A DNA stretch of 64,000 bases, from the IMG/VR virus record IMGVR_UViG_3300020470_003428, positions 1 to 64,000 of that record. One strand, written 5' to 3'. Within the stretch, counting starts at the first letter, position 1. Each line of letters starts with the position of its first letter. The notes below the pieces were generated by a model, which saw nothing but the letters and a program-made list of their open reading frames with translations, had not been told where the DNA came from and did not search any database. Made by a program: the position numbers and the translations under genes. Positions 42,507 to 59,946 of the stretch are shown here, piece by piece. This DNA is from a virus.

Positions 42507-42536
42507 AATAAGAAGGTTATCAATGCTTACTGTTAG

Positions 42537-47090: not shown

Positions 47091-47732
47091 TTAGTGATAT
47101 AGAAGAGCAAAGGGTTGGTCTATAGGACCGTAAGCAAGATCATCTTTCTTATCAATAGGAAGATTAAGCTTGGCAGCTTCTTCCTCTGAGCGAACGACTC
47201 TTGCATTTCGTGGAAAATCAACAGGGTTGATTAAGTGATCGAAGCGACCTCCCCAACTAGCAGAGAGTCTGTAGTTGTCAGGTCTTTTGACATCCAAGAA
47301 TAAAGGTAAATTCTTGGTGTAAGAGTAATGAATCAGATGATTAATCTCTTTAGAAGTATTAAAAATTGCATCACGGAGTTTAACCGAGTCGCAATCACCT
47401 GAAACAAACCATCTCACTTTCTCAGCTTTTTTGAAGCCTTTATGGGTAGAGATGGATATGACCATGAGGTCAGTAAGATCTGTAAGAGTTAGAGAATCTA
47501 TAAGATCTTTGTTATGCCAACGAGCCTTACGGACATTGGGATAACGAGCTTCCATACGTGCTGCATAGCAGTCATATAAAAGGTTGGCAGCTTTAGTGAG
47601 CTTGCCTGTCTCTCTGTCAGAAATAACGTGACAGTGCTTAGCACCAGGACAGCAATGGCCAGCTGGTGTGCTAAAGGTGAGGATGGTGTCGGCAAGCTTG
47701 AGGTTACCTGCCCCAAGCTTTAATAGATCCAT
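47091..47732 (-). CDS. Gp88-like protein
   Basis: The ATG at 47732 follows a conserved upstream motif and yields 213 residues. TPAGHCCPGAKHC at the start matches the cysteine-rich LPAxxTCPGAxxC motif of phage Gp88-like proteins (PF17338), whose function is unknown. The frame stays open upstream through a terminator; translation upstream is not supported. Confidence 0.75.
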   Translation of the reverse strand: MDLLKLGAGNLKLADTILTFSTPAGHCCPGAKHCHVISDRETGKLTKAANLLYDCYAARMEARYPNVRKARWHNKDLIDSLTLTDLTDLMVISISTHKGFKKAEKVRWFVSGDCDSVKLRDAIFNTSKEINHLIHYSYTKNLPLFLDVKRPDNYRLSASWGGRFDHLINPVDFPRNARVVRSEEEAAKLNLPIDKKDDLAYGPIDQPFALLYH

Positions 47733-47736
47733 AAAA

Positions 47737-47754
47737 GTACTGATGAAAAGATCC
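47737..47754 (-). promoter_or_regulatory. Conserved upstream motif, copy 1
   Basis: On the minus strand this reads GATCTTTTCATCAGTAC, four bases before the Gp88-like ATG. It belongs to a 12-copy family with the core TTTTCATC(A/G)GTAC found only at minus-strand gene starts between 47.7 and 59.9 kb. The function is not known; a phage-specific promoter or translation signal is likely. Confidence 0.7.
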
Positions 47755-47758
47755 AACA

Positions 47759-47792
47759 AAAAATCCCTCTGCGCCCACCAACGCAAAGGGAT
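47759..47792 (-). terminator. Terminator upstream of the Gp88-like gene
   Basis: On the minus strand ATCCCTTTGCG pairs with CGCAGAGGGAT (11 bp, one G-U) followed by TTTTTTG. It lies directly before motif copy 1, so the Gp88-like gene has its own transcription signals. Confidence 0.8.
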
Positions 47793-47895
47793 CTTAAGCC
47801 TGGGCTTACGTGAGATGATATGAATTAATGCTTCTCTATCACTGGATTCATACCATACCCTTTCTGTCTCACGGCCAGAAAAGGTTACATGAATC

Positions 47896-48078
47896 TTAGT
47901 CCATTGAATCTAAGCTGTTATGGAATCTGATCTTCTTTGTTGGCGTATCAAATTCTGCTATAAATTCATTAATCCTTTCAATCATTGCGATTGTGGATGG
48001 AGTGGTGGGGATCTTAGATAAAACGTCATCTCGGAGAGAGACTAATTCGTTTCTAGTTACTTCAATGGAACGGTGCAT
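47896..48078 (-). CDS. Small helical protein (60 aa)
   Basis: The product is helical (EVTRNELVSLRDDVLSKIP...MIERINEFIAEFD). Function unknown. It ends shortly before the open stretch that leads to the terminator at 47759. Confidence 0.55.
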   Translation of the reverse strand: MHRSIEVTRNELVSLRDDVLSKIPTTPSTIAMIERINEFIAEFDTPTKKIRFHNSLDSMD

Positions 48079-48129
48079 TGTGCGGATGTGGGATAGATGT
48101 TGCAGATTGGTTGAACAGAAGTCACAGAC

Positions 48130-48312
48130 TTAGCTGCTTCTTCTATTAGTTTTAGGAAGTTTTGCCGATGATCGGATGTCAATTGTGTCAATGTTTCCAT
48201 CAGGAAATAGGGGTTGTCCGTCTGTATTTAATTGGTATCTAAGGGAACGCTTATAGCTGCCTTCCCTTAGTCTATATTTTTGACTGTATGTTTTACGTTT
48301 ATGCTTGCCCAT
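48130..48312 (-). CDS. Small basic protein (60 aa)
   Basis: A Lys/Arg-rich product (MGKHKRKTYSQKYRLREGSYKRSLRYQL) likely to bind nucleic acid. Its start overlaps the preceding gene by 14 bp. Function unknown. Confidence 0.5.
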   Translation of the reverse strand: MGKHKRKTYSQKYRLREGSYKRSLRYQLNTDGQPLFPDGNIDTIDIRSSAKLPKTNRRSS

Positions 48313-48553
48313 TATCAGGTATTAGCATCGCTTGCGCTACTGGAGTGGGTTCTGATTTACCTTCGAACATCACGTAGTACCCTGGGTGAGTACGTCCGTT
48401 AGTGTATTTCAGATCTTTTCTGCCACAGATAACACCCTTCTTGGTGCGAAGGGTTCCATTGCGGTCAGGTTTAAGCACTTTGTCTCCTAATTTGAACTTG
48501 GCTCCTTCAGTCTTATTAGACCTCTTCTTGAGCTTGTAATTAGTGTCCGGCAT
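48299..48553 (-). CDS. Small basic protein (84 aa), SH3-like
   Basis: The ATG at 48553 (MPDTNYKLKKR) gives a protein with a KLGDKVLKPDRNGTLR and YVMFEGKSEPTPVAQAML region. This looks like a small SH3-type beta-barrel. It overlaps the DUF932 gene by 14 bp. Function unknown. Confidence 0.55.
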   Translation of the reverse strand: MPDTNYKLKKRSNKTEGAKFKLGDKVLKPDRNGTLRTKKGVICGRKDLKYTNGRTHPGYYVMFEGKSEPTPVAQAMLIPDNGQA

Positions 48554-49619
48554 AGAATTTAACTTTCGGATGGTCAAGCAAGTGGTTAGTAAAGCTAGCA
48601 TTTAATCTGGCTATTGGGCCATCAAGCTGCTGAGCAAATCTTGCTTCGTCCCCATTTTTAACGTGTTTTGTGTGACTTGTAAATTGGGTGACTGCAGAAT
48701 GAACACTAAACATATTGTTTTGTCTTGTTTCCAGTTCGCTTCCTATGAGATCTCCTTTGAAGATCCTTTCTAATTGATTCAAGAACTTACTCTTGATCGG
48801 AGAGTTAGGGAACTGAAGGGCATGGCCTCTGTCTTCCTCTGGAATCATATCTTGGAAAAATTCACGCATTAACACAACACCTTCTTCTTGAGAACATGGT
48901 GTATTAATCATGCGGATTTTGTCTTTGATATATTGTTCGCCAGTGGTGATAGCAGCATCCATTGCTTGTTCTACGTCGATAATGTCACGCTTTTGCCTAT
49001 GACTTACTCTTGTGTCTGACCCTTGTACTCGACGTGTCATCCCATTGTCACAAACCAATTCATTTGCATAAACAGTTGCTCTCATGGATTGAGCCTTGAG
49101 ATAGTTGATGGTGTACATCAAAAAGAAGTCGGTAGTATCACCAACTTTTCTTAACTCAGGAGGATTAAGGTTGGTCATCTTAGAAAAGAAGTACAAGACT
49201 TTCTGTTCTGGCAACCAACCAATACCATCAAGGGTAATGTCGGGTTTGTTCTCTATGGATTTCTTGTACCAATTCAATGCGTCTACTGGATTAACAATGA
49301 ATCTTTTATCTGAGAATTGACCTAACTTATCTCCAGTATTGCTTTGATACCAATGGACTACGTTAGGATATTCTTTATCAAAATTTCTAGAGTAAAGAGT
49401 TTCAGGCTCTACCGTCCAGTTACAACCAATTGATTTCAATTGTTCTTCTGTTGTTTGCCAATCTCTACACTCTGATTTATATCCTTGGAAGAACTTAGCG
49501 TCTTCTCGAGTTAACTTACCGGGGACAAATACAGTTGAACCTGGGTCATCAATTTCTTTTGTACAGATACCTGCCGTTGTTTGAGAACGAGGCATAGCTT
49601 GGGTGGGAGTAATAGTCAT
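48540..49619 (-). CDS. DUF932-type phage/plasmid protein
   Basis: The 359-residue protein has the layout of DUF932 (TIGR03299) phage/plasmid proteins: a GDKLGQFSDKRFIVNP region, FFLMYTINYLKAQSMRATVYANELVCDNGMTRR, VQGSDTRVSHRQKRDII, and a C-terminal helical part. The family is widespread in phages with large genomes and is of unknown role. It lies upstream of several small genes. Confidence 0.75.
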   Translation of the reverse strand: MTITPTQAMPRSQTTAGICTKEIDDPGSTVFVPGKLTREDAKFFQGYKSECRDWQTTEEQLKSIGCNWTVEPETLYSRNFDKEYPNVVHWYQSNTGDKLGQFSDKRFIVNPVDALNWYKKSIENKPDITLDGIGWLPEQKVLYFFSKMTNLNPPELRKVGDTTDFFLMYTINYLKAQSMRATVYANELVCDNGMTRRVQGSDTRVSHRQKRDIIDVEQAMDAAITTGEQYIKDKIRMINTPCSQEEGVVLMREFFQDMIPEEDRGHALQFPNSPIKSKFLNQLERIFKGDLIGSELETRQNNMFSVHSAVTQFTSHTKHVKNGDEARFAQQLDGPIARLNASFTNHLLDHPKVKFYAGH

Positions 49620-49631
49620 TGAAGGATAGGG

Positions 49632-49865
49632 TTAAGGACTTCTGAGTGCTAGATCTGTTGCAATATCTTCAACAATGATCTCAATAGCGGTGAGATCTCT
49701 GCGAAGAGAAGGATCTAATTTGGGTTTAATCTTACGTAACTTCCCAAGTATGAAAGTTACGTTGTCTTTTGTATTAAGAGGTGGTTGATTCTCCTGTTCT
49801 TGAACTCGCTTCAATAAGAGTTTGTTCTGCCTGAACTTCGTCAAGTCTGTTATCTTGCTCATCAT
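49632..49865 (-). CDS. Small basic helical protein (77 aa)
   Basis: The product is helical (LKRVQEQENQPPLNTKDNVTFILGKLRKIKPKLD). Its first 92 bp overlap the end of the 241-residue gene on the same strand in another frame. Function unknown. Confidence 0.55.
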   Translation of the reverse strand: MMSKITDLTKFRQNKLLLKRVQEQENQPPLNTKDNVTFILGKLRKIKPKLDPSLRRDLTAIEIIVEDIATDLALRSP

Positions 49866-50499
49866 TTACACCTATTAATTGTGAGAAAGGAAGAGGTTGA
49901 TCTAGTTTTCTACAAAGTTCGCAGACTCTATCTTCAAACAACAGTGGATCACGAGTGAATGCAGTACCCTGCACTGGTCTGTTATCCGTGTTGAAGATAT
50001 TGGCAAAGATGCCACCTTTGGATCCTCTAGATGTGTATATCGTGCCGTAAATATCCCAGAGGTCAAGATTGTTTGTTATGTGGTAGTCGATAATCGACTC
50101 TAAGTCTCCTAACAGGGTTGCAGGTGCGCATTGTATGAGCTTTTTACCTGTATCAGGGTTAACTAGGCCTCCACATCTCATCTTGAGAATACCTGTGACA
50201 ACTTCATCTGTTCGCTCAAGATCAGGAAGGATATTGAACGTTTGAAAAATGAAGTTTAAATAAGGTGTCTTTTGCCCTTTGCTGAAGTGATGGCTGACTC
50301 TAAGGACAGGCTTGCTCCAGAAGACAAGACCTTCGTTTTTCTCTAGCGTGAACGCTGGATTGTCAGGAGTCTGACCATAACCATAGATACAGCCGGATCC
50401 ATTAATACCCATGACTACAGTGTTAGTCTCGGGTTTGAACTGTCTAGTAGTGTCAACTACAGCAGTATCAGTGGTGAGAGAACTCGTGTTAGAACTCAT
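49774..50499 (-). CDS. Hypothetical protein (241 aa)
   Basis: I start at ATG 50499, 24 bp after conserved motif copy 2; the frame upstream of it is not translated into a convincing N-terminus. The product has a TNTVVMGINGSGCIYGYGQTP region and FQTFNILPDLERTDEVVTGIL-type segments. No family is recognised. Confidence 0.65.
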   Translation of the reverse strand: MSSNTSSLTTDTAVVDTTRQFKPETNTVVMGINGSGCIYGYGQTPDNPAFTLEKNEGLVFWSKPVLRVSHHFSKGQKTPYLNFIFQTFNILPDLERTDEVVTGILKMRCGGLVNPDTGKKLIQCAPATLLGDLESIIDYHITNNLDLWDIYGTIYTSRGSKGGIFANIFNTDNRPVQGTAFTRDPLLFEDRVCELCRKLDQPLPFSQLIGVNDEQDNRLDEVQAEQTLIEASSRTGESTTS

Positions 50500-50523
50500 A
50501 AAACAAAAGCAACAACATAAAAC

Positions 50524-50541
50524 GTACTGATGAACAGCCGC
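50524..50541 (-). promoter_or_regulatory. Conserved upstream motif, copy 2
   Basis: Minus strand reads GTTCATCAGTAC with a diverged left arm (GCGGCT). It lies 24 bp before the ATG at 50499 and within the divergent region shared with the plus-strand Dps-like gene. Confidence 0.6.
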
Positions 50542-50582
50542 ACAAAAAGCTCTCCTAAGATAGGAATAATCGCATCTTTCAG

Positions 50583-51110
50583 ATGGAACTACATAACGCT
50601 CCTGTACCAGAATCTCCAGACCAACCAAAGTTGGCACTAATGGTGCAAGGAGAATCTTACGAAGATAAAGTGGGAGCTATTGGAGAGAAGTTGGTTTTAT
50701 TAGCTGCGTTTGCCAAAGAATTACAGACACAATCTCACCTTATTCATTTCAACTACGAAGGATCTAATTTCCTTGCAGTGCATCAGTTCTTAAAGGATCA
50801 GTATGAATTACATACAGAGCAATTTGATACCTTAGGCGAGTTGGTGAGGACTCTTAATTATTGGATGCCTATGTGTTCTAAAGGATTAAAAGAATCGTTA
50901 GGTCCTTGCTTCAAGCATTGCGATTGCTACGAGGGAAATGCAATGCTGGCTACGTATTATAGAAATCTAGAATCATTCTCTAGCATGGTCAAGATGGTTG
51001 AACCAGCTGCTCAAGAAACACAGCATTACGATATTGCTAATTATCTAGGCGAATTGATTGGTCAGATATGGAAAACTTGCTGGATGGTTAAAGCTACTCT
51101 GAAGAATTAG
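50583..51110 (+). CDS. dps: Dps-like ferritin
   Basis: The 175-residue protein contains LIHFNYEGSNFLAVHQFLKDQYELHTEQFDTLGELVR. Ligands H55, H67, D82 and E86 have exactly the 12/15/4 spacing of the Dps ferroxidase site. It would oxidise and store iron and protect DNA from peroxide. It is alone on the plus strand among minus-strand genes, divergent from motif copy 2. Dps in a phage is uncommon. Confidence 0.75.
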   Translation: MELHNAPVPESPDQPKLALMVQGESYEDKVGAIGEKLVLLAAFAKELQTQSHLIHFNYEGSNFLAVHQFLKDQYELHTEQFDTLGELVRTLNYWMPMCSKGLKESLGPCFKHCDCYEGNAMLATYYRNLESFSSMVKMVEPAAQETQHYDIANYLGELIGQIWKTCWMVKATLKN

Positions 51111-51417
51111 AGCCATCGAAATCTTCTATTGCTTGTTCAAAATCACTTGCTGTGAGTTCAGCTGGTTTATCAGATGGCAACGTATGAATCACAGGTGGTT
51201 TACTACTAGTAATATTTTCTTCTTCTTCGGTATTGCATAGCCATTTAACAATAGTGACAGGAAAGGTTAGAGACTGTTCTTCTCTACCTCTGACTTCTAG
51301 CATTATTTTGGATGTCAGCCATCCTATTAATGCTTCCTTAGTAGCGAATGTATCTAATTCTTCCGACTTAGGACCAGAAACGCCTTGTCTTACTGCGTAT
51401 ACTTGTTGAAGGGGCAT
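51094..51417 (-). CDS. Hypothetical protein (107 aa)
   Basis: The product starts MPLQQVYAVRQGVSGPKSEELDTFATKEALIGWL and ends with an acidic tail. It overlaps the Dps-like gene end by 17 bp. No family recognised. Confidence 0.6.
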   Translation of the reverse strand: MPLQQVYAVRQGVSGPKSEELDTFATKEALIGWLTSKIMLEVRGREEQSLTFPVTIVKWLCNTEEEENITSSKPPVIHTLPSDKPAELTASDFEQAIEDFDGSNSSE

Positions 51418-51446
51418 AGCCTTGTTTGATCTGACAATATATTAGT

Positions 51447-51635
51447 TCAACTGTAGTCATATGTCGGTAGAACTTGCCACACATCTGCTGAGCCTCTTTT
51501 GCAGGCTGGAATAGTTTTCAGAAATCTTTCCATGGCTGTATGAGACGTACATCCATACGCTAAGAAATGGAAGGGAAACGACTCCCCTGGCGGTCGGTAT
51601 CGAACTTGCCAGTCACCTAAGTATGTGTGTTGCAT
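51447..51635 (-). CDS. Small hypothetical protein (62 aa)
   Basis: The product is aromatic-rich (HTYLGDWQVRYRPPGESFPFHFLAYGC) with a compact beta-like start. It is one base from the following gene. Function unknown. Confidence 0.55.
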   Translation of the reverse strand: MQHTYLGDWQVRYRPPGESFPFHFLAYGCTSHTAMERFLKTIPACKRGSADVWQVLPTYDYS

Positions 51636-51636
51636 A

Positions 51637-51792
51637 TCAGTAAGATGGAACGTCTAAAAAAGCTTCGTCTTTACAATCGCTAGAGCAGGTTTGGTCGTTG
51701 AGAGCGCATTCAGATAAGCATTCAAAGTATTGATCTATTTCATCTAGTTGAGTCGCGTCTTTAGGTAGGAGAGTGGGTGAAATGGTCTTCAT
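51637..51792 (-). CDS. Small Cys-rich acidic protein (51 aa)
   Basis: The ATG at 51792 is preferred because a GGAGGCACCAAC ribosome site precedes it. Residues 28-43 (CLSECALNDQTCSSDC) hold four Cys, possibly a metal site. The upstream in-frame extension is not needed. Confidence 0.6.
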   Translation of the reverse strand: MKTISPTLLPKDATQLDEIDQYFECLSECALNDQTCSSDCKDEAFLDVPSY

Positions 51793-51889
51793 GTTGGTGC
51801 CTCCCTGCGTGTCTGTGTTTGGCTTTTCTCTGGATACCATAGAGAATAATAAACCAGGAAAAGAATCCTAATAAGTCTAAGAAAGTCAT
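51761..51889 (-). CDS. 42-aa membrane protein with His-rich tail
   Basis: The frame gives one hydrophobic helix (MTFLDLLGFFSWFIILYGI) followed by a basic, His-rich tail (KHRHAGRHQHEDHFTH). It overlaps the next gene by 32 bp. It lacks a clear ribosome site, so confidence is modest. Confidence 0.4.
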   Translation of the reverse strand: MTFLDLLGFFSWFIILYGIQRKAKHRHAGRHQHEDHFTHSPT

Positions 51890-51928
51890 AAAAATAATTC
51901 CAGTAGTGAAAACAATAGTCTGCTAGTA

Positions 51929-52057
51929 TTACCTGCCTCGGGGAATTAAAGTGATATTTTTAACTGCACTTCCTTTCGTCCACTTGATTCTCACCCTGTG
52001 AGCAGGGAACTTGTAGGATAATTTAACCCATTGGATGAAGCGTTTGAAATGTTTCAT
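51929..52057 (-). CDS. Small basic protein (42 aa)
   Basis: The ATG overlaps the previous stop (ATGA). The product is basic (MKHFKRFIQWVKLSYKFPAHRVRIKWTKG). Junction and composition support it. Function unknown. Confidence 0.5.
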   Translation of the reverse strand: MKHFKRFIQWVKLSYKFPAHRVRIKWTKGSAVKNITLIPRGR

Positions 52058-52287
52058 AAATCTATAAGTTCTTTAATGAGTAGATATTCTGTCTGGGCAT
52101 TACGCCAAGGAATTAGTTTGGCATGTCCTCCTGCTCCTTTCTTGAAAGAATAAGAGAGGACTCGACTGCCTGATCTTTTCCATGCGTAACAATCCCTTTG
52201 GTCTTTAGAGCAAACAGAAATAGTTTTACCTAGTTCTAGCTCTAAGAGAACACTTTTGCGAAGATGATCATCGTTGTTCTTCTTCAT
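52054..52287 (-). CDS. Small basic protein (77 aa)
   Basis: The product is basic with KDQRDCYAWKRSGSRVLSYSFKKGAGG in the middle. It overlaps the upstream gene by 20 bp and the downstream one by 4 bp. No family recognised. Confidence 0.6.
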   Translation of the reverse strand: MKKNNDDHLRKSVLLELELGKTISVCSKDQRDCYAWKRSGSRVLSYSFKKGAGGHAKLIPWRNAQTEYLLIKELIDL

Positions 52288-52501
52288 TTTCTTTGCGTTC
52301 CTCCTCGAAGAAATGTTCTAAGGCAGGATCTCCTATGCAATGTTGAATGTTATAGGAGTCCAAGGTATAAGGAGGTGGATAGTCGCTTTTGATAGGCCAT
52401 TCCACCTCCGGAGAGATAGTGATCTCTTCTGGTAATGGCTCAATAGAACTGTCTGCAATCTTTCCATCCTTAATAGTGAGAATGATTTTGTAATCTTGCA
52501 T
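52268..52501 (-). CDS. Small acidic protein (77 aa)
   Basis: ATG at 52501 (MQDYKIILTIKDG) follows a TTG that is less likely to start it. The C-terminus is strongly Glu-rich (FEEERKENEEEQR). It begins with a beta-hairpin-like segment. Function unknown. Confidence 0.6.
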   Translation of the reverse strand: MQDYKIILTIKDGKIADSSIEPLPEEITISPEVEWPIKSDYPPPYTLDSYNIQHCIGDPALEHFFEEERKENEEEQR

Positions 52502-52532
52502 CGTATTCAATACCTATTGAGACATATATTAG

Positions 52533-53192
52533 TTATGTATCAGCCTCTTGGCTAAATTGTCGTTGCCTTCTGATTTGGCCGTTAGCAATAAAGTCTTTAC
52601 CACTGTTAATGGCACAGGAGACAACGGATCTTTGAATATGGTCGACTGTGAAAGCAGGTTTGCATCCTAAGCGTTTAGCAGCATAAAGCATGCCATCGCA
52701 TAGTTGCTCAATCATGTACTTAAAGTCTGGGTCCAACTGTCCAAAAGAGTCAGTGGTATTGATACCATCTGCTCCGTAGTTGTCTGGGTAACCTTCAAAT
52801 CCAGCTTCTTGCCAGTCTGTTGAAATGAACGTAGAGTCGTCTTCCATTTTCGTGTTGCTTGCTTGTTGCTCGTCGCTAAAAAGGAGTACGTCGACGCCGA
52901 GGTCACGGTCGTATTGGATTCTTGTTGTGTAATGGTTTCCTTCGATTGGAGTTCCATCTGTGCTGAATGGCTCTCCTTTCTTGAATAACTCAGCGACTCT
53001 TTCTCGTGCTGATGCAGGGAACGCGACTGTTGCATGGACAGGTGCTCCGTTCCTTCCTCTGACGAGGTAGTCGAACCTAACGAACCAATATCCTGCGTGT
53101 GCAGGTTTTGATTTGACGCAGGCTGATGGGACTCCTGTGAATTTGTGGAAGGACTTGTAAGGTGTTTTGGCTTTCGTAGGGGTGGTAACCAT
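52533..53192 (-). CDS. Hypothetical protein (219 aa)
   Basis: The 219-residue protein looks like a real globular product (GYWFVRFDYLVRGRNGAPVHATVAFPASARERV; CDGMLYAAKRLGCKPAFTVDHIQRSVV). A second same-strand gene overlaps its first 481 bp in another frame. No family is recognised. Confidence 0.7.
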   Translation of the reverse strand: MVTTPTKAKTPYKSFHKFTGVPSACVKSKPAHAGYWFVRFDYLVRGRNGAPVHATVAFPASARERVAELFKKGEPFSTDGTPIEGNHYTTRIQYDRDLGVDVLLFSDEQQASNTKMEDDSTFISTDWQEAGFEGYPDNYGADGINTTDSFGQLDPDFKYMIEQLCDGMLYAAKRLGCKPAFTVDHIQRSVVSCAINSGKDFIANGQIRRQRQFSQEADT

Positions 53193-53395
53193 TTGACTGA
53201 ATAGGTGGGTGGGATGAAATGGGTAACGATAGCTTCTATGTCTCGAAGACAGAAAACAATAGAGTCTCCTTGTCTGGAGGAGTTGCCTCCGACAAATACA
53301 TCAGTCCATAGGAAAGCTAACGCTTCTTGCGTAACAGGAGTAAGGAAAACTTCACTAGCTCCTTTACGTGTTGAGACTAAGAAGTCATGTGTCAT
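52712..53395 (-). CDS. Overlapping hypothetical protein (227 aa)
   Basis: The first 68 residues look genuine (VSTRKGASEVFLTPVTQEALAFLWTDVFVG). The ATG overlaps the Gp157-like stop by 4 bp. The remaining part, in the overlap with the 219-residue gene, is low-complexity Ser/Thr/Gln. Either the gene has a long nested overlap, or translation shifts by -1 into the other frame, or there is a sequence error. Confidence 0.45.
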   Translation of the reverse strand: MTHDFLVSTRKGASEVFLTPVTQEALAFLWTDVFVGGNSSRQGDSIVFCLRDIEAIVTHFIPPTYSVKWLPPLRKPKHLTSPSTNSQESHQPASNQNLHTQDIGSLGSTTSSEEGTEHLSMQQSRSLHQHEKESLSYSRKESHSAQMELQSKETITQQESNTTVTSASTYSFLATSNKQATRKWKTTLRSFQQTGKKLDLKVTQTTTEQMVSIPLTLLDSWTQTLST

Positions 53396-54054: not shown

Positions 54055-54238
54055 GAATTTGAATCCTTTTGAAATTGTCTCGATAAGGAGTGGCTGTGTA
54101 TCTATCCATGGGTTCTACCGAGTCTTGAGGTAAGTAGGCAGACCAATGAACGTACACGTCTTGCTTTGGGCTGTGGAATATCCTGAAGGGATTCATGTGA
54201 ACTATCAATCGCTTCAAGAAGTTGTTGAATTCCGTCAT
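53876..54238 (-). CDS. Hypothetical protein overlapping Gp157 gene (120 aa)
   Basis: The ATG at 54238 (MTEFNNFLKRL) gives a protein whose first 60 residues (VHWSAYLPQDSVEPMDRYTATPYRDNFKRIQIHDHKTNLQW) look coding. Its last 179 bp overlap the Gp157-like gene on the same strand in another frame. Function unknown. Confidence 0.5.
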   Translation of the reverse strand: MTEFNNFLKRLIVHMNPFRIFHSPKQDVYVHWSAYLPQDSVEPMDRYTATPYRDNFKRIQIHDHKTNLQWVESFDTTEDAGNYCLALYSGDLCEGDLQPTKVPDFILRPRHSKQRIFKSD

Positions 54239-54313
54239 TGCGGCAATTGATCTTAGAAGCAGAACCATGTGCTAGCATTTCTAACTTGTAGGTAATTAGA
54301 TGATGCCGAATAA

Positions 54314-54407
54314 AACAAGTTTTGGGTAGTCCTGGTCTTAAGCTTTAGCCAGAAAAGTGGAGCAGACCATCCACAAGATTGGATTGCAGCCAGGACTATC
54401 ACTTGTT
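54314..54407 (-). other. Large imperfect hairpin after the 54406 gene
   Basis: On the minus strand AACAAGT pairs with ACTTGTT and AGTCCTGG with CCAGGACT, with an inner GTGGA(8 nt)TCCAC hairpin. It runs from the stop of the 138-residue gene for about 94 nt and ends in TTTTATT. It could be a terminator or a small structured RNA. Confidence 0.5.
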
Positions 54408-54822
54408 ATGCAGCAGCAGTGGCTTGCTTCTTGGCAGTATTATTCTTAGCAATGGCAGCATTGTCAGCGGCTGACTGTTGAACCATCTTTGCTATGTACT
54501 CGCCAGAGATTGTCCAGCCTTGGTAGACTCTAGTTTCGTAGGTCTGACCTGTGGTAGGACATGTGAAGTCTTCTCCTTCTACAACTGGGCATGACATCAG
54601 TTCAGCGACAGAAGTCTTTTTGATGATCTCAGCACAGTCTTCATAGGAAGTTTTGAAAACTCTAGGGATACCTTCGTACTTACCACCGAGTCGGTTAAGT
54701 TGCCATGCGTTGACAGTGGCACCACCTTCTCTGTATCGGTAATACGTAAGGAGACCACCGAAGAACTCTGCAAATGCAGGATCATCTTTGGTGTAGAAAT
54801 TGGGTTTGGTTTTGGTGTTCAT
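54406..54822 (-). CDS. Hypothetical protein (138 aa)
   Basis: The ATG at 54822 is preferred to an in-frame TTG at 54843. The product contains TTYYRYREGGATVNAWQLNRLGGKYEGIPRV-like residues and an Ala/Lys/Asn-rich C-terminus (AAIAKNNTAKKQATAAA). It lies downstream of motif copy 3. Function unknown. Confidence 0.65.
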   Translation of the reverse strand: MNTKTKPNFYTKDDPAFAEFFGGLLTYYRYREGGATVNAWQLNRLGGKYEGIPRVFKTSYEDCAEIIKKTSVAELMSCPVVEGEDFTCPTTGQTYETRVYQGWTISGEYIAKMVQQSAADNAAIAKNNTAKKQATAAA

Positions 54823-54864
54823 TGTGATTGTGAACGTGAACAACCCCCATCATCAACACAAAAA

Positions 54865-54882
54865 GTACTGATGAAAAAGGTC
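54865..54882 (-). promoter_or_regulatory. Conserved upstream motif, copy 3
   Basis: Minus strand TTTTTCATCAGTAC with one extra T. It is unusually far (about 42 bp) from its ATG at 54822 and faces a plus-strand gene at 54940 across the divergent gap. Confidence 0.65.
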
Positions 54883-54893
54883 AAATAAGAAAA

Positions 54894-54931
54894 TGAAACA
54901 ACGTTAAACTATAGAGAGAACGGTTGTTTCA
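54894..54931 (+). other. Hairpin before a gene start
   Basis: TGAAACAAC (54894-54902) pairs with GTTGTTTCA (54923-54931), plus GTT/AAC inner pairs. The ATG follows eight bases later without a Shine-Dalgarno sequence. Confidence 0.5.
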
Positions 54932-54939
54932 TTGAATCG

Positions 54940-55563
54940 ATGGCTGAACAGAGGGTAAGACGTAGAGACATAGCAATGGCTGCTCTACAGGAGAAATTAG
55001 CTGAACTACAGCAGAAGGTTGGAAATATTCCACAAGGTATTACCGATAAAGCTCAGTCATTAGAGCAAATGGTGATAAATCAAGCATCTGATAGGGCTCG
55101 TAACGCTAGAACTCAGCAGATTAGTAATATTTCTGGGGGATATAGGCGTCAAGCAGAGAAAGGAAATGAGCAGATATTCAAATTATTAGCAGCTGCAATA
55201 TTCGAGGAGGCAAATGATGTGACTGTCGCTGCTGTTAAACAACGCATAGGAACACACGGATTAGATTCTGTAGTTCAGGAAGCTGCAAAGAATACAGCTA
55301 GACCAAAATACAGTGTTAATACTGCATATCAATCTGTTAACGAGGCAATTGCTAATGATCCAAATATCAGAAGAGTAGGTGGACCCGTAGCGGCAGCAGC
55401 TGGTGCAGTAGCAGGAACTGGAGCATTAATGGAATGGAATGATCCTGACAGAGGTTTTGCAATCGTAGCTGGACCTAATGTCAATCAGGCAGCGATGCAG
55501 GATATCATAGAATTCCTAGAGAATGGTGATCCTCTAAGAAGAGAGACAGAAACAATCGCATGA
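54940..55563 (+). CDS. Hypothetical helical protein (207 aa)
   Basis: The product is helical with coiled-coil potential at the N-terminus (AALQEKLAELQQKVGNIPQGITDKAQSLEQM) and an Ala/Gly-rich segment (GGPVAAAAGAVAGTGAL, about 148-165) that could insert in a membrane. Its stop overlaps the next start by 4 bp. Possibly an internal virion protein. Confidence 0.65.
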   Translation: MAEQRVRRRDIAMAALQEKLAELQQKVGNIPQGITDKAQSLEQMVINQASDRARNARTQQISNISGGYRRQAEKGNEQIFKLLAAAIFEEANDVTVAAVKQRIGTHGLDSVVQEAAKNTARPKYSVNTAYQSVNEAIANDPNIRRVGGPVAAAAGAVAGTGALMEWNDPDRGFAIVAGPNVNQAAMQDIIEFLENGDPLRRETETIA

Positions 55564-55790
55564 GATTAGCTGGCGACCTATTTGATTTTGATCTGACCGA
55601 GGGTTTAACTGCAGGTAATATTGACAGCCTGAGGCGTGGCTTCAGGGCTGACAAGATGATACCTAGGTCTTTAACTCGTGGTTTCTATGATATTAAAGAT
55701 ATACAGAGGAATGAGATGGCTCCTGAGAATAGCGAGCCTGAATATACATTGACAGGTGCTTACCAGCCTGAAGTCACCTATGGGCTTTAA
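55560..55790 (+). CDS. Small hypothetical protein (76 aa)
   Basis: The product begins MRLAGDLFDFDLTEGLTAGNIDSLRRGFRADK and ends EVTYGL. It follows the 207-residue gene with a 4-bp overlap and converges on an oxygenase-like gene (4-bp overlap). No family recognised. Confidence 0.6.
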   Translation: MRLAGDLFDFDLTEGLTAGNIDSLRRGFRADKMIPRSLTRGFYDIKDIQRNEMAPENSEPEYTLTGAYQPEVTYGL

Positions 55791-56392
55791 GTCTCGATCT
55801 TATCTCCGTAATAATTAACATTAATCACTGACCTATAAGGTTTATCGGTACAAGTAGCACCTCTATGTGGATATTTGTTGGAGAAGATAATAGCTCTATT
55901 AGCAACAGTATCTATCTTTTGTTCGAAGTTGTCTAAGTCTGGGTGTTGAACATTGGTCCATCCATTACATGTATTTAAATGGATGATGGCAACCATGCAA
56001 TTGTCTCCGTATGCCTCAGGTGGATTTTCGTCATGGTGGTAGGGAGCAGGTATATGCTTTCCTTTTGCACAGTTAAGGTTGACCTTAATTCTGACAGGCA
56101 CTCTGGATTTGAGGGCAAACAGCATAGGAATGAATCTATTGAAATGTTGAGATATATGAAATTCTGGTGAGACAGAGTAATGGTTAGCTACGAATTGAAG
56201 ATTAGCGTCAGGTGGTAAGTCTTTGAAATACTCTATATATCGTTTCTTCTCACTATCTGGCATATTAGGGTCTCCTATACCAGAAATAGTGCTTATCTCC
56301 CAAGGTTGATAGACTTCGCACCAATGGTTAAGTTCGTCGAAGTATTTCTTATCTAGGAAGTTATCAATGATTTGGACGTCTTCTAGTGCCAT
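55787..56392 (-). CDS. 2OG/Fe(II) oxygenase-like protein
   Basis: The 201-residue protein has H119-H-D121 (APYHHDENPPEAYG), distal H176 (YPHRGATC) and R187 (YRSVINVNYYG). The ligand set is intact. It is the only oxygenase-like gene in the early region and is preceded by a membrane microprotein whose stop overlaps its ATG. Confidence 0.75.
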   Translation of the reverse strand: MALEDVQIIDNFLDKKYFDELNHWCEVYQPWEISTISGIGDPNMPDSEKKRYIEYFKDLPPDANLQFVANHYSVSPEFHISQHFNRFIPMLFALKSRVPVRIKVNLNCAKGKHIPAPYHHDENPPEAYGDNCMVAIIHLNTCNGWTNVQHPDLDNFEQKIDTVANRAIIFSNKYPHRGATCTDKPYRSVINVNYYGDKIET

Positions 56393-56469
56393 TAGTAATT
56401 TTGATAGACATAGTTAACAATAAGGTAAACGCTGACAACAATAATTGCCAATAATAAGAGGTGAGTCAT
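56392..56469 (-). CDS. 25-aa membrane microprotein
   Basis: The peptide is one hydrophobic helix (THLLLLAIIVVSVYLIVNYVY). Its TAA overlaps the oxygenase ATG (TAATG). A very similar type of short membrane peptide precedes the halogenase gene at 26680. Translation is supported by the junction only. Confidence 0.4.
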   Translation of the reverse strand: MTHLLLLAIIVVSVYLIVNYVYQNY

Positions 56470-56487
56470 GGGTGCTGATGTAAGAGA

Positions 56488-56521
56488 GAAAAAAAGCCCT
56501 AACAGTTAGAGCTATTAGGGC
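56488..56521 (-). terminator. Terminator after the 56528 gene
   Basis: GCCCTAATAG and CTGTTAGGGC form a 10-bp stem (one G-U) with a TCTAA-type loop, followed by TTTTTTT on the minus strand. Confidence 0.85.
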
Positions 56522-56527
56522 AATATA

Positions 56528-56899
56528 TTAGTCCTTGTTTGGGTAGAAGTTGGGGTACTTCTTCTTGCTTATAACGTGATTGTTTATATTACGAGGCACA
56601 CCTCGCTTATCACGGTAGACGCAAATTTCACCATCGTAAAACTCAGCTAGAAATTGAGCTAGTTCTAGTGGTACGTTCCTCATTGCAAAGAGGAGTTTAA
56701 CTATAAGAGGGATAATTGGTCGAGAGGCTGCATTAATAAAACGAGCAAGAAGGTCAAGGATGTTCTTTGCCTTCCGATAGGTTTTCATTGCGAATTCGGA
56801 AAGTCTTGCCATAAGATTAACGCGGTTTGACTCATTTAGCTCTTCATAGTCAATGTCAAGGACTTCTCCAGGGACTTCGGTAGTCAGGATGGAGTTCAT
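56528..56899 (-). CDS. Hypothetical protein (123 aa)
   Basis: The ATG at 56899 lies four bases after motif copy 4. The product is helical (NLMARLSEFAMKTYRKAKNILDLLARFINAASRPIIPLIVKLLFAMR) with a hydrophobic middle and a basic C-terminus (RGVPRNINNHVISKKKYP). It might associate with a membrane. Function unknown. Confidence 0.6.
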   Translation of the reverse strand: MNSILTTEVPGEVLDIDYEELNESNRVNLMARLSEFAMKTYRKAKNILDLLARFINAASRPIIPLIVKLLFAMRNVPLELAQFLAEFYDGEICVYRDKRGVPRNINNHVISKKKYPNFYPNKD

Positions 56900-56903
56900 A
56901 AAA

Positions 56904-56921
56904 GTACTGATGAAAAGGTAC
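56904..56921 (-). promoter_or_regulatory. Conserved upstream motif, copy 4
   Basis: Minus strand GTACCTTTTCATCAGTAC, four bases from the ATG. Both GTAC arms are present, so it is a near-palindrome. Confidence 0.75.
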
Positions 56922-56927
56922 AAAAAA

Positions 56928-56953
56928 GCCCCACCTCAAGGGCAGGGCTGGGG
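56928..56953 (-). terminator. Terminator before motif copy 4
   Basis: A CCCCA/TGGGG stem with a 15-nt interior is followed by GCTTTTTTG on the minus strand, immediately before the motif. Confidence 0.6.
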
Positions 56954-56954
56954 T

Positions 56955-57137
56955 TTAAATGTGAGATTCATCAAGAGTGTCGTCAAAGAGCAGTTGGTCG
57001 GCTGCATAGCCTTCAACATCCGGAATCTCGTCAGGTTCATAAATGTTCTCTCCGACAGGGATGCCATCGGAGTTCTTTATGATCTTGTGAGGGTTGGCCT
57101 TCATAGGAAAGCCTTCGAAGCCACGTCGGTCACTCAT
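56955..57137 (-). CDS. Small acidic protein (60 aa)
   Basis: The acidic product begins MSDRRGFEGFPMKANPHKI and ends TLDESHI. It shares a junction with the upstream gene (one-base overlap) and has no motif copy of its own, so the two form one unit. Function unknown. Confidence 0.55.
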   Translation of the reverse strand: MSDRRGFEGFPMKANPHKIIKNSDGIPVGENIYEPDEIPDVEGYAADQLLFDDTLDESHI

Positions 57138-57436
57138 TAGTTATCCTCGTTGAGGTCTGAGTATTCTGACATAGCCTTCTCTTGTTTGGACTCGAGTTCA
57201 GCCTGACGCTTGGCATAATCAACAAGTTGCATCTTGCTTTGATCGTGAGACCATTTCAAGATGTCATATCTATGGTTGATCTTTTCAAGTAGAGTCTTGT
57301 GAATTCTCTCTAGGCCGGGCTTATTGAAGAGGTGCATAGCATCAAGAAGAGCTAGTGCCTCCTTAACAGTGATCCATCCTAGATCGATATCAAGATCTTC
57401 TACTTTGGGTTCAGGTTGATCGTACTTAGATAGCAT
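57137..57436 (-). CDS. Helical protein (99 aa)
   Basis: The ATG follows motif copy 5 by three bases. The product is helical and charged (KEALALLDAMHLFNKPGLERIHKTLLEKINHR), ending acidic. Function unknown; likely an early host-takeover protein by position. Confidence 0.6.
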   Translation of the reverse strand: MLSKYDQPEPKVEDLDIDLGWITVKEALALLDAMHLFNKPGLERIHKTLLEKINHRYDILKWSHDQSKMQLVDYAKRQAELESKQEKAMSEYSDLNEDN

Positions 57437-57439
57437 GTC

Positions 57440-57457
57440 GTACTGATGAAAAGGTAC
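57440..57457 (-). promoter_or_regulatory. Conserved upstream motif, copy 5
   Basis: Minus strand GTACCTTTTCATCAGTAC, three bases before the ATG at 57436. Confidence 0.75.
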
Positions 57458-57462
57458 AAAAA

Positions 57463-57496
57463 AGCCCCATCCAGCATGTGAAAGCTAGACAGGGCT
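57463..57496 (-). terminator. Terminator before motif copy 5
   Basis: AGCCCTGTCTAGC and TGCTGGATGGGGCT pair nearly along their whole length, followed by TTTTTTG. Confidence 0.75.
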
Positions 57497-57502
57497 GTTG
57501 GG

Positions 57503-58087
57503 TTAGAAGTCAGCGATAGCAGTATTCTCTTTAGGAGCGCTAGTCAAGACATCGAAGGCAAAAACCTTCTTGCTTGGGTTGTAGCGCAGAGTCTTCTCTT
57601 TCTGACCAGTAGGTTGACCATTGTCATCCAAGATGTCTCTTAGTTCAATGTCTTCCTTCTTTGAGTACCATTCCCAGTAGAGTCTTACAACTGCATATTC
57701 AGTCGTGTCAACCAATTCCATGATTTGGTCTCCTACTGGGTTTGGCTCTGCCTCTGTGCCATTGTTCCAGAAGTCAAACCAGGTTTCCCTGACTTTAACT
57801 TTCTGGTACTTGCCGTCACCCATGAAGATGTCGACTGACTCTCTTACAGGAGCAACAAAGAGGTTAGGAGAGATAACTGTGCCATCTTTCCTAGTACCAG
57901 GTTTTGCATAATTGATCAGACCAACCGTAGTAAAGTCTGCCCTCTGCTTACGGATCTCTAGCTTAGAAAGGGTTGGAGACTGAGCAGCTAATAGCTCCTC
58001 ATATTTATCAGCAACCTCATTCTTTGTGCCAGATGCAATCCTTTGCTTAGGAGTCATTTCTGCAAAAGTGGTAGAAGCGTTAGCCAT
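57503..58087 (-). CDS. Hypothetical protein (194 aa), possible ssDNA/structural
   Basis: The ATG at 58087 gives 194 residues. It has a beta-rich central part (VISPNLFVAPVRESVDIFMGDGKYQKVKVRETWFDFW). The last part includes KKVFAFDVLTSAP. It lies 17 bases from motif copy 6. No family recognised; it is the largest of the early array proteins. Confidence 0.65.
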   Translation of the reverse strand: MANASTTFAEMTPKQRIASGTKNEVADKYEELLAAQSPTLSKLEIRKQRADFTTVGLINYAKPGTRKDGTVISPNLFVAPVRESVDIFMGDGKYQKVKVRETWFDFWNNGTEAEPNPVGDQIMELVDTTEYAVVRLYWEWYSKKEDIELRDILDDNGQPTGQKEKTLRYNPSKKVFAFDVLTSAPKENTAIADF

Positions 58088-58104
58088 AGTACGCAGCACT
58101 AAAA

Positions 58105-58122
58105 GTACTGATGAAAAGGTAC
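58105..58122 (-). promoter_or_regulatory. Conserved upstream motif, copy 6
   Basis: Minus strand GTACCTTTTCATCAGTAC, 17 bases before the ATG at 58087. Confidence 0.75.
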
Positions 58123-58128
58123 AAAAAA

Positions 58129-58157
58129 GCCCCCACTCAGAGAAGTTGAGCAGGGGC
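58129..58157 (-). terminator. Terminator before motif copy 6
   Basis: GCCCCTGCTCA and TGAGTGGGGGC form an 11-bp stem followed by TTTTTTG. Confidence 0.8.
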
Positions 58158-58163
58158 GTTGGG

Positions 58164-58340
58164 TTAGTCAGTCCAAAAATCGAAGCTACTATCCCAGCCT
58201 TCAGCTGAAATATGTCTATAGGCATCGATACGAGCGTGGGCTCTTTGGGCTGACCCGTCTTCTAAGAATGAAAGCAACGCTGCACGTATAGAATCTTGTG
58301 CGGTGGCAGGCCGACCTTCATATAAAAAACTAGAAGCCAT
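58164..58340 (-). CDS. Small protein (58 aa)
   Basis: The frame starts at ATG 58340, after motif copy 7, and ends just before the next terminator. The product is MASSFLYEGRPATAQDSIRA, a helical stretch, and SFDFWTD. It fits the one-gene-per-cassette layout. Function unknown. Confidence 0.6.
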   Translation of the reverse strand: MASSFLYEGRPATAQDSIRAALLSFLEDGSAQRAHARIDAYRHISAEGWDSSFDFWTD

Positions 58341-58362
58341 GGTGGTGAGCAGTACCTAAAAC

Positions 58363-58380
58363 GTACTGATGAAAATGGAC
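58363..58380 (-). promoter_or_regulatory. Conserved upstream motif, copy 7
   Basis: Minus strand GTCCATTTTCATCAGTAC, about 22 bases before the ATG at 58340. Confidence 0.75.
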
Positions 58381-58385
58381 AAAAA

Positions 58386-58416
58386 ACCCCCACTCATACA
58401 AAAAATGAGCAGGGGT
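58386..58416 (-). terminator. Terminator before motif copy 7
   Basis: ACCCCTGCTCAT and ATGAGTGGGGGT pair over 12 bp and are followed by TTTTTTG. Confidence 0.8.
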
Positions 58417-58422
58417 GTGGGG

Positions 58423-58575
58423 CTAGGCATCATATTCCTCTACGACCTTCTTGATATGTTCAAATTCTCTTTCGATGATCTCTAACTCTGCAGGAGTGAA
58501 TAGAGAATGCATCTCTTCTTTGAACTGAAGGTTGGACTTAGCAATTTCCAAGGAATTAGGCTGACCGTTAAACAT
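58423..58575 (-). CDS. Small acidic helical protein (50 aa)
   Basis: The frame starts three bases after motif copy 8. The product is helical and Glu-rich (SLEIAKSNLQFKEEMHSLFT; LEIIEREFEHIKKVVEEYD). Function unknown. Confidence 0.6.
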   Translation of the reverse strand: MFNGQPNSLEIAKSNLQFKEEMHSLFTPAELEIIEREFEHIKKVVEEYDA

Positions 58576-58578
58576 AAC

Positions 58579-58596
58579 GTACTGATGAAAGGGAAC
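58579..58596 (-). promoter_or_regulatory. Conserved upstream motif, copy 8
   Basis: Minus strand GTTCCCTTTCATCAGTAC, three bases before the ATG at 58575. Confidence 0.75.
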
Positions 58597-58601
58597 GAAA
58601 A

Positions 58602-58632
58602 ACCCCCACTCAGAGAGAAACTGAGCAGGGGT
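58602..58632 (-). terminator. Terminator before motif copy 8
   Basis: ACCCCTGCTCAG and CTGAGTGGGGGT pair over 12 bp, followed by TTTTTCG. Confidence 0.8.
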
Positions 58633-58638
58633 GTTGGG

Positions 58639-58899
58639 TTAGAAAGGGAGATCGTCGTACTGACTTGAGTCTCCTACCTTCGCAGGTAAGGACTCATTCT
58701 CGATTCTTATCAGATTGTCAATAACTGTGTCTTTGATCCTGATCAACTGTTTCTGCGTTAGAACTTGGCTGTGGCCATGCTCAAGCAAATCCATGATCGT
58801 CTCAAAGCGAGACAGGCCGACCTCAGTCCTAGAAGGAGGCTGGGGAGTGGCTTTGAAATCTGCGTAAGGAGAGGAGATTTGTGGCGCTTGTGTCGTCAT
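58639..58899 (-). CDS. Small protein (86 aa)
   Basis: The ATG at 58899 lies seven bases after motif copy 9. The product has a helical region (SRFETIMDLLEHGHSQVLTQKQLIRIKDTVIDNL) and an acidic C-terminus (SSQYDDLPF) resembling an SSB-type tail. Function unknown. Confidence 0.6.
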   Translation of the reverse strand: MTTQAPQISSPYADFKATPQPPSRTEVGLSRFETIMDLLEHGHSQVLTQKQLIRIKDTVIDNLIRIENESLPAKVGDSSQYDDLPF

Positions 58900-58906
58900 C
58901 GTAAAA

Positions 58907-58924
58907 GTACTGATGAAAAGGGAC
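58907..58924 (-). promoter_or_regulatory. Conserved upstream motif, copy 9
   Basis: Minus strand GTCCCTTTTCATCAGTAC, seven bases before the ATG at 58899. Confidence 0.75.
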
Positions 58925-58930
58925 AAAAAT

Positions 58931-58954
58931 ACCCCCACTCAAGCAGAGCAGGGG
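58931..58954 (-). terminator. Terminator before motif copy 9
   Basis: CCCCTGCTC and GAGTGGGGG form a short stem with a small loop, followed by TATTTTTG. Confidence 0.75.
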
Positions 58955-58961
58955 CAAAACT

Positions 58962-59339
58962 TTAATGCCAAACTAAGCCTTCTTTACATATTTCTAGAAT
59001 CTCAAGGGATCTATCATATGTCAGATCGGCGTTGGCAGAGAGGAGGAGCCTGAGACAGAGCTCGGGATCTTTGGTGGATCCGATGGACTCATCCTCAGGA
59101 ATGAGACTGAGATCAAACTTACCCCATCCGTAAGACAGGAAGTCACGATATTTAGCAATAGGACCACCCTCGACAGCGACATGAAATGCTAAATCAACTT
59201 CGTCGATCTCCATTTTCTCGTAAGCGCAGTCCAAGGCATTCATAAGGATCTGGTAGTAATCGGCAATCCCAGAACGGACGCCGGCTAACTTCTCAAGATC
59301 ACTATCTGAACACTTAGCAGGATAAAGACGCGTACCCAT
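58962..59339 (-). CDS. Hypothetical protein (125 aa)
   Basis: The product starts MGTRLYPAKCSDSDLEKLAGVRSG and includes a WGKFDLSLIPEDES region. It is acidic. It lies three bases after motif copy 10. Function unknown. Confidence 0.6.
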   Translation of the reverse strand: MGTRLYPAKCSDSDLEKLAGVRSGIADYYQILMNALDCAYEKMEIDEVDLAFHVAVEGGPIAKYRDFLSYGWGKFDLSLIPEDESIGSTKDPELCLRLLLSANADLTYDRSLEILEICKEGLVWH

Positions 59340-59342
59340 AAT

Positions 59343-59360
59343 GTACCGATGAAAAGGAAC
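59343..59360 (-). promoter_or_regulatory. Conserved upstream motif, copy 10
   Basis: Minus strand GTTCCTTTTCATCGGTAC (a CGGTAC variant), three bases before the ATG. Confidence 0.75.
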
Positions 59361-59366
59361 AAAAAA

Positions 59367-59386
59367 ACCCCACCTAGCGGCGGGGT
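59367..59386 (-). terminator. Terminator before motif copy 10
   Basis: ACCCC/GGGGT stem with an inner GC pairing and TAGC loop, followed by TTTTTTTG on the minus strand. Confidence 0.7.
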
Positions 59387-59408
59387 AGCGCGCAGTAGTA
59401 CGGAACTA

Positions 59409-59564
59409 CTACATGAATACAGGAGCTAAAGGATTGAAGAATCTAGTGACAGACTGACCAACCCAGTACCAACGGATGACAGTGCCTAGGGCTATGCAGA
59501 TGGCGAGATACCAGCCGGTATGCTCCATTGCAAAGTCAACAACGTCATGGAATAAGCGATTCAT
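59409..59564 (-). CDS. Small membrane protein (51 aa)
   Basis: The ATG at 59564 follows motif copy 11 by five bases. The product has one likely membrane helix (TGWYLAICIALGTVIRWYW, about 16-34). It may target the host envelope early in infection; role unknown. Confidence 0.6.
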   Translation of the reverse strand: MNRLFHDVVDFAMEHTGWYLAICIALGTVIRWYWVGQSVTRFFNPLAPVFM

Positions 59565-59569
59565 GGAAT

Positions 59570-59587
59570 GTACTGATGAAAGGGTAC
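59570..59587 (-). promoter_or_regulatory. Conserved upstream motif, copy 11
   Basis: Minus strand GTACCCTTTCATCAGTAC, five bases before the ATG at 59564. Confidence 0.75.
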
Positions 59588-59592
59588 AAAAA

Positions 59593-59622
59593 ACCCCCAC
59601 TTCATAGAAACGAAGCAGGGGA
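59593..59622 (-). terminator. Terminator before motif copy 11
   Basis: CCCCTGCTTC and GAAGTGGGGG form a stem followed by TTTTTTG. Confidence 0.8.
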
Positions 59623-59629
59623 TTTAAGG

Positions 59630-59833
59630 TTATGACCACTGTCTAACGACTTGTGGATTACCTTGACCGAAGGCTGTCCTCCACTGCTGAAGCTGGTGGA
59701 AAGCATCCTTTGGGCCAAGATCAGGGACTAACTTGCCTAACCGTCTGCACTTAGCACTCATGATCACACCATGCCTGGAGATGATGGCGAGCTTATTACC
59801 TTGTGCAAAATCGTAGCGAGTTTCAGTAAACAT
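59630..59833 (-). CDS. Hypothetical protein (67 aa)
   Basis: The product starts MFTETRYDFAQGNKLAIISRHGVIMSAKC, a beta-like region, and has LGPKDAFHQLQQWRTAFGQG at the C-terminus. It is the first gene of the minus-strand array, next to the divergent junction, and lies six bases after motif copy 12. Function unknown. Confidence 0.6.
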   Translation of the reverse strand: MFTETRYDFAQGNKLAIISRHGVIMSAKCRRLGKLVPDLGPKDAFHQLQQWRTAFGQGNPQVVRQWS

Positions 59834-59839
59834 GAAAAT

Positions 59840-59857
59840 GTACCGATGAAAAGTGAC
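59840..59857 (-). promoter_or_regulatory. Conserved upstream motif, copy 12
   Basis: Minus strand GTCACTTTTCATCGGTAC, six bases before the ATG. It is the outermost copy, at the edge of the junction region. Confidence 0.7.
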
Positions 59858-59946
59858 ACTAACATCGGATTAACATAGTTTTGACATACGTCTACGCTTG
59901 GTAGCCATCAAAGGAACAATAGCTACAAGCGAATGTTATGTGAGAA

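Follow-up and report, generated by a model that had tools for sequence, protein, structure and literature searches.

Introduction

Short repeats ahead of viral genes have been described in several settings. The promoters of single-subunit phage RNA polymerases, such as those of T7 and of cyanophage Syn5, are compact (~20 bp) and occur in many near-identical copies on one strand at the starts of transcription units; the Syn5 promoter comprises 15 bp, ATTGGGCACCCGTAA (PMC3950665). In cluster K mycobacteriophages, a short asymmetric repeat, the start-associated sequence (SAS) with its extended form (ESAS), precedes the starts of many small genes, is conserved with the orthologous genes, is accompanied by inverted repeats in half of the cases and carries AGGAG in the position of a ribosome-binding site (PMC3203893). 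The L5-type stoperators of cluster A mycobacteriophages are asymmetric 13-bp sites that lie in short intergenic gaps and are oriented with transcription (PMC9283540), and intergenic repeats of halovirus HF2 are reported to carry promoters (PMC8707807). Here we describe an asymmetric repeat, hereafter the element, which recurs on the minus strand just ahead of small genes in a 64,000-nucleotide stretch of uncultured viral DNA (the window), namely bases 1-64000 of the 80,539-bp IMG/VR virus record IMGVR_UViG_3300020470_003428.

The element shares with the T7 and Syn5 promoters its compact size, its many near-identical copies, its single strand and its location at unit starts, but its sequence is unrelated to the Syn5 promoter (PMC3950665) and no single-subunit polymerase was detected in the 16 records searched. 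Like SAS/ESAS it is a short asymmetric repeat just upstream of small-gene starts that is kept with orthologues; it differs in its variable spacing to the ATG, in lacking a Shine-Dalgarno sequence in all twelve cases and in being tied strictly to the starts of units, most of which follow a terminator. Compared with L5-type stoperators, it occurs in phages for which no integrase was found (16 records), coincides with every unit start of the gene arm, abuts terminators and has no known repressor, no search aimed specifically at one having been made. The promoter-bearing repeats between HF2 genes, 29 and 58 bp long with AT-rich motifs, belong to an archaeal virus (PMC8707807). The closest named phage, Synechococcus phage S-EIV1, is devoid of the element, and its orthologous GP88 gene is preceded by a different, covarying pseudoknot-like motif.

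The reading that we favour, and consider rather probable, is that the repeat is a clade-specific, promoter-like core start element of ~21 bp plus a T-rich run, present once at the 5' end of each leftward unit and read by a recogniser other than the housekeeping sigma factor of the host. A cassette would consist of the element, one or two small genes and an intrinsic terminator; each unit would start and stop independently and be gained or lost as a block. Transcripts would start on GT(A/G)CA itself or no more than a few bases away, and the specificity may lie with the RNA polymerase of the host, redirected by a factor that we do not recognise and that is either encoded by the phage or carried in the virion, or else with a polymerase too diverged to be detected.

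Copies of the element

A sequence-only reading of the window had listed twelve minus-strand copies with a common core and none elsewhere in the window. All twelve are present, with their left ends at the positions given; the core TTTTCATCRGTAC is exact in nine of them and carries one mismatch in the other three (50524, TGTTCATC; 58579 and 59570, CTTTCATC), the part common to all twelve being TTCATC(A/G)GTAC. Allowing up to two mismatches yields 16 matches to the core against 3.8 expected in shuffled sequence, and none of 100 shuffles reached 16. A position weight matrix of 22 columns, built from the twelve window copies and seven copies of a relative, found these 12 sites only on either strand of the 80,539-bp record at a cut-off score of at least 8. 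The twelve copies score 23-35, and shuffled sequence gives 0-4 matches at this loose threshold. The exact core is absent from the remainder of the record beyond the window, and all element copies of the record lie on one strand.

The distance from GTAC to the ATG is 3, 3, 3, 4, 4, 5, 6, 7, 17, 22, 24 and 42 nt in the twelve copies; eight of the genes fall in the range 3-7 nt, the other four in the range 17-42 nt. The shortage of Shine-Dalgarno sequences noted earlier is real (0/12 element genes versus 17/57 other genes, p = 0.03), but it is weak evidence because just 17 of the 57 other genes have one.

Unit starts and terminators

As had been proposed, nine of the twelve copies follow strong terminators; the remaining three (59840, 54865 and 50524) follow a non-coding gap or a divergent plus-strand gene. 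The nine top-ranked terminators of the region are all on the minus strand, and eight of them run into an exact or one-mismatch element, whereas the ninth, at 56521-56496, is followed by a decayed copy (56472). A long loop characterises the terminator ahead of 47737, which was identified by reading the sequence. If unit-first genes are taken as those after a terminator, a divergent gene or a non-coding gap, the element stands at 12/12 leftward unit-first genes (12/13 if the unit downstream of the decayed copy is included) and at 0/22 listed internal genes of the arm (Fisher p = 1.6e-8, computed with 12/13), the unit list having been made by hand from the table of open reading frames (ORFs) and the gene calls being mechanical.

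In most cassettes only ~25 bp separate the T-run of the terminator from the ATG, which leaves no space for a further promoter. Since the element is the sole conserved thing in this gap, a core promoter formed by the element and the T-rich run is the simplest account. It has to be weighed against sites at which a DNA-binding protein of the phage, acting like the L5-type repressors, would silence or stop transcription. Many asymmetric sites of the same orientation in short intergenic gaps would suit such operators or stoperators (PMC9283540), as would the weak dyad TGNNC...GTRCA. On the other hand, the units would then be left without a visible promoter, no integrase was found in the 16 records (the control was detected in 14/14 genomes) and the presence of psbA suggests a lytic phage, so that we regard this explanation as improbable.

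The twelve units, all on the minus strand, are as follows from right to left. Copy 1 (59840; element 59838-59858) has no terminator upstream; the leftward arm begins with its unit, gene 59630-59833. Copy 2 (59570; 59568-59588) lies between terminator 59621-59594 and gene 59409-59564, copy 3 (59343; 59341-59361) between terminator 59386-59367 and gene 58962-59339, copy 4 (58907; 58905-58925) between terminator 58956-58930 and gene 58639-58899, and copy 5 (58579; 58577-58597) between terminator 58632-58602 and gene 58423-58575. The same order is seen for copy 6 (58363; 58361-58381; terminator 58416-58386, gene 58164-58340), copy 7 (58105; 58103-58123; terminator 58157-58129, gene 57503-58087), copy 8 (57440; 57438-57458; terminator 57496-57463), which heads a two-gene unit (57137-57436 and 56955-57137), and copy 9 (56904; 56902-56922; terminator 56949-56927, gene 56528-56899). 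Copies 10 (54865; 54863-54883; gene 54406-54822) and 11 (50524; 50522-50542; gene 49774-50499) each follow a divergent plus-strand gene, while copy 12 (47737; 47735-47755) starts a long operon whose first gene, 47091-47732, belongs to the GP88 family (PF17338, E = 2.1e-26).

The decayed thirteenth copy (56472-56484, minus strand; CTTACATCAGCAC) has three mismatches to the core. Directly after it lies a 23-codon hydrophobic ORF (56389-56460, minus strand), possibly encoding a tiny membrane peptide. To the right of copy 1, a non-coding gap (59861-60610) separates the leftward arm from the rightward structural genes; it is partly conserved in the relative G001 and may be an origin or a control region.

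Close relatives and the movement of cassettes

The terminase and portal-like proteins of the phage match those of S-EIV1 (KJ410740) far above any other named phage, with identities of 50-52% for the terminase, 47% for the portal-like protein and 69% for the capsid-like protein of the relative G002; by these matches, the window phage is a distant relative of S-EIV1. These terminase and portal-like protein comparisons revealed no named phage close to the clade. G002 (IMGVR 3300020465_000013) is ~97% identical to the window where compared and overlaps the start of the window record (G000). The last bases of the window record fall within psbA, and the first protein of G002 was read as psbA starting within the gene. 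The two records hence appear to cover jointly the whole circle of ~87 kb, which gives weight to the negative domain searches described below.

Eight element copies are present in G002, which lacks two whole cassettes of the window (genes 58962-59339 and 58423-58575, copies 3 and 5) with clean terminator-to-element joints. G001 (3300025132_000031), whose arm proteins are roughly 30-86% identical to those of the window, has nine copies on a single strand in the order terminator, element, gene, reading CATC(A/G)GTACATT, and G003 (3300006737_000112) has eight. At units orthologous to those of 47737 (G001 and G003), 50524 (G001, 19905; G003, 5989) and 54865 (G001, 16340), the element is kept while the flanks have diverged.

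The proposal that the small genes are autonomous units with a dedicated start element is thus supported by the 12/12 versus 0/22 distribution, by conservation at orthologous starts and by the gain and loss of whole cassettes; if cassettes are independent units, they can come and go whole. That cassettes are gained or lost at these seams, and that terminator and element recur together, could also be expected if the element were a processing site at which read-through RNAs are cut, or merely a recombination seam. Copies at divergent unit starts without an upstream cassette (59840, 54865, 50524 and orthologues) argue against this, as do the strong T-run terminators upstream and the decay of copies that have no ordinary gene downstream (56472 in the window and 5095 in L130), and we consider such joints quite improbable.

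The element across the family

Distant relatives were gathered by using as query the GP88 protein encoded in the unit of 47737, by alignment with S-EIV1. In total, 14 related uncultured records bear the element in the same layout, namely G001-G003 and eleven further ones, in which TCA(G/T)CNGT(A/G)CA(T/C) lies practically always on one strand (reversed pattern, 0-1 matches) and mostly between a terminator and a gene. An alignment of 67 copies from eight diverged phages of 41-62% GC, two of the copies being probably chance matches that were later dropped (leaving 65 in the pairing tests), gives a bipartite, asymmetric consensus with fixed spacing: a T-rich run, present even where no terminator precedes, followed by TG-N2-C-N5-CA(G/T)C-N-GT(A/G)CA-(T/C). 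Positions A2, C4, G6, T7 and C9 are conserved in 67/67 copies, C1 in 66/67, T-9 in 63/67 and G-8 in 64/67. Conservation of the core results partly from the way the copies were chosen, as those of the GC-rich records were retrieved with the core pattern itself, and the independent conservation result is the TG block at -9/-8, which lay outside the query.

The extended pattern has 116 matches in 0.94 Mb of family loci, which overlap and are partly redundant, compared with a single match in 2.93 Mb of viral and genomic sequence from outside the family that had been retrieved for unrelated purposes; reversed, it matches twice and once, respectively. Several of the records are fragments. When the whole viral collection was scanned with a GC-rich form of the pattern, 16 stretches matched, of which 11 belong to family records and five are single-copy sites without family genes. 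Single matches among those listed for a broad viral scan with a 13-mer plus ATG, and four scattered single matches of the long motif in bacterial genomes, all from non-cyanobacteria, were judged to be chance. The element therefore looks confined to one uncultured cyanophage clade.

The earlier suggestion of near-leaderless mRNAs is plausible for the AT-rich lineage of the window, but does not extend to the GC-rich relatives, in which about 20-65 nt often separate the element from the ATG; proximity to the ATG is hence not the defining trait of the element. Across the family the distance ranges from 2 to about 65 nt, and this variability argues against a ribosome-binding element.

Were the element a promoter, it would provide a simple sequence marker for the transcription units of an uncultured cyanophage group, predict where dozens of small genes of unassigned function begin, and point to an undiscovered transcription factor or polymerase by which the machinery of the cyanobacterium is redirected or replaced. 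The cassette array would moreover be a ready list of candidate host-takeover genes. One could go further and suppose, as a possibility that we rate below even, that the clade has a transcription-specificity system of its own, in which a bipartite TG...CAKCNGTRCA core promoter and a reader with no sequence relationship to the RNA polymerases and sigma factors known so far run a modular array of mostly one-gene cassettes.

What could read the element

A start element needs a reader, and it weighs against the promoter-like reading that no candidate recogniser protein was found, that part of the element resembles a host promoter box in one lineage and that one subclade shows signs of RNA pairing. 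As to the first point, the sequence-only reading had considered a phage-encoded polymerase, for which the searches give no support: PF00940 was found in 0/16 records (T7 control, E = 9.9e-110), the beta-prime-like domain PF00623 in none of the 16 with controls detected, and the polymerase palm motif, searched as a regular expression, in none of G000-G002. Sigma70 region 2 (PF04542) was likewise detected in 0/16 records and its control in 11 genomes, although a diverged gp55-like factor would escape this search. Its other suggestion, a modified host RNA polymerase, is a possible reader.

The resemblance to a host box concerns TAC-N-TT, which fits a TANNNT -10 box at +7 in 26/29 copies of the AT-rich lineage and would make the copies disguised housekeeping promoters for host sigma-70. 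At that offset, 0/36 copies of the GC-rich lineages have TANNNT, and no host-type -10 box is common to the family. In addition, GTAC is better conserved than the last T, sigma-70-like sites are not enriched in the arm (16 observed versus 26 expected), and at several genes the ATG lies 2-3 nt past GTAC, so that the start would fall inside the gene. One such start, that of the first gene of G003 with its ATG 2 nt past GTAC, is firm, since the upstream frame meets a TAA without an intervening start codon. Host sigma-70 promoters are from our point of view very improbable. An NtcA site (GTA-N8-TAC) was rejected by reading, as the spacing in the element is 12.

Three consecutive clade-conserved genes at 39805-41945 of the window, encoding an SSB-like protein, an SSB (PF00436 in the orthologue of G010) and a PCNA-like clamp, were considered as recogniser candidates and set aside because they look like replication proteins. 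They are conserved in the element-bearing phages examined and were not found in S-EIV1. The model of the SSB-like protein is unusable (predicted local distance difference test score, pLDDT, 40); that of the clamp is of low confidence, and its listed Foldseek matches are nearly all PCNA or related clamps. In T4, the sliding clamp acts as a coactivator of late transcription, and by analogy the PCNA-like clamp may be a remote lead to transcription.

RNA structure

The signs of RNA pairing raise the question whether the element is instead an RNA leader, in which a hairpin or pseudoknot formed by the 5' end of the mRNA would control translation or stability. There is partial complementarity between the arms TGNNC and GTRCA, which change in step from lineage to lineage, reading GTAC/GTAC in the window and GCAC/GTGC in L151, L152 and L160. 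In the subclade of G006 and G010, an extra downstream segment, CTGTTGAG, is complementary to CTCAGCAG (z = 5.3 and 6.6), its 5' stem having been located in L354, L363, L356 and L358-L360, and in that subclade an RNA role is possible. The covarying pseudoknot-like motif at the orthologous gene of S-EIV1-type relatives also points in this direction. Against a leader stands the central arm pair, opposite the invariant T7, which is Watson-Crick (A) in only 20/65 copies; the next pair covaries only weakly (shuffle fraction 0.012, from shuffles that do not correct for relatedness), and this signal is confounded by lineage. The downstream complementarity is missing from the close relatives G001 and G003 (z = 0.05), and the variable distance to the ATG does not fit ribosome binding. 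No hairpin is kept by the family as a whole, and we consider an RNA leader unlikely as the general explanation.

Searches of Rfam gave no match above the gathering score in the window, in two stretches of G001 or in S-EIV1, with sub-threshold matches alone at relaxed settings. A hammerhead ribozyme on the opposite strand (CTGATGA) was discarded, as the motif is not kept and relatives read CTGCTGA. Several GC-rich relatives have a CCCGG...CCGGG hairpin immediately before the ATG.

Further observations

The motif of S-EIV1 (KJ410740, minus strand, 25895-42988) and of its relatives L181-L225, where it lies upstream of GP88, reads GTC-CY-[NNNN]-AN-GAC-N-YTAAACT-[NNNN] and is located some 30-60 nt before gene starts. 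It resembles an H-type pseudoknot RNA: the second stem has its four pairs intact in 60/83 distinct sequences, and over all 83 it forms 304 pairs against a maximum of 277 in 2000 shuffles. Being without an Rfam match in S-EIV1, it could represent a new riboswitch-like element. Two further repeated leader motifs on the minus strand of S-EIV1, CCCTGGGCRTCCAT...GTAAGTCCCAGG and GATCCGTCAAAGCGGGT, each stand before a gene (40773 and 41464; 43481 and 43775).

Elsewhere in the window, the minus-strand gene at 25514-26686 matches a phage tryptophan halogenase family (phrog_2928, E = 3.6e-67). At L128:7376-9694 (record positions 70375-72693), a large DUF4214 protein is encoded, part of which matches a HINT/intein-like domain (PF07591).

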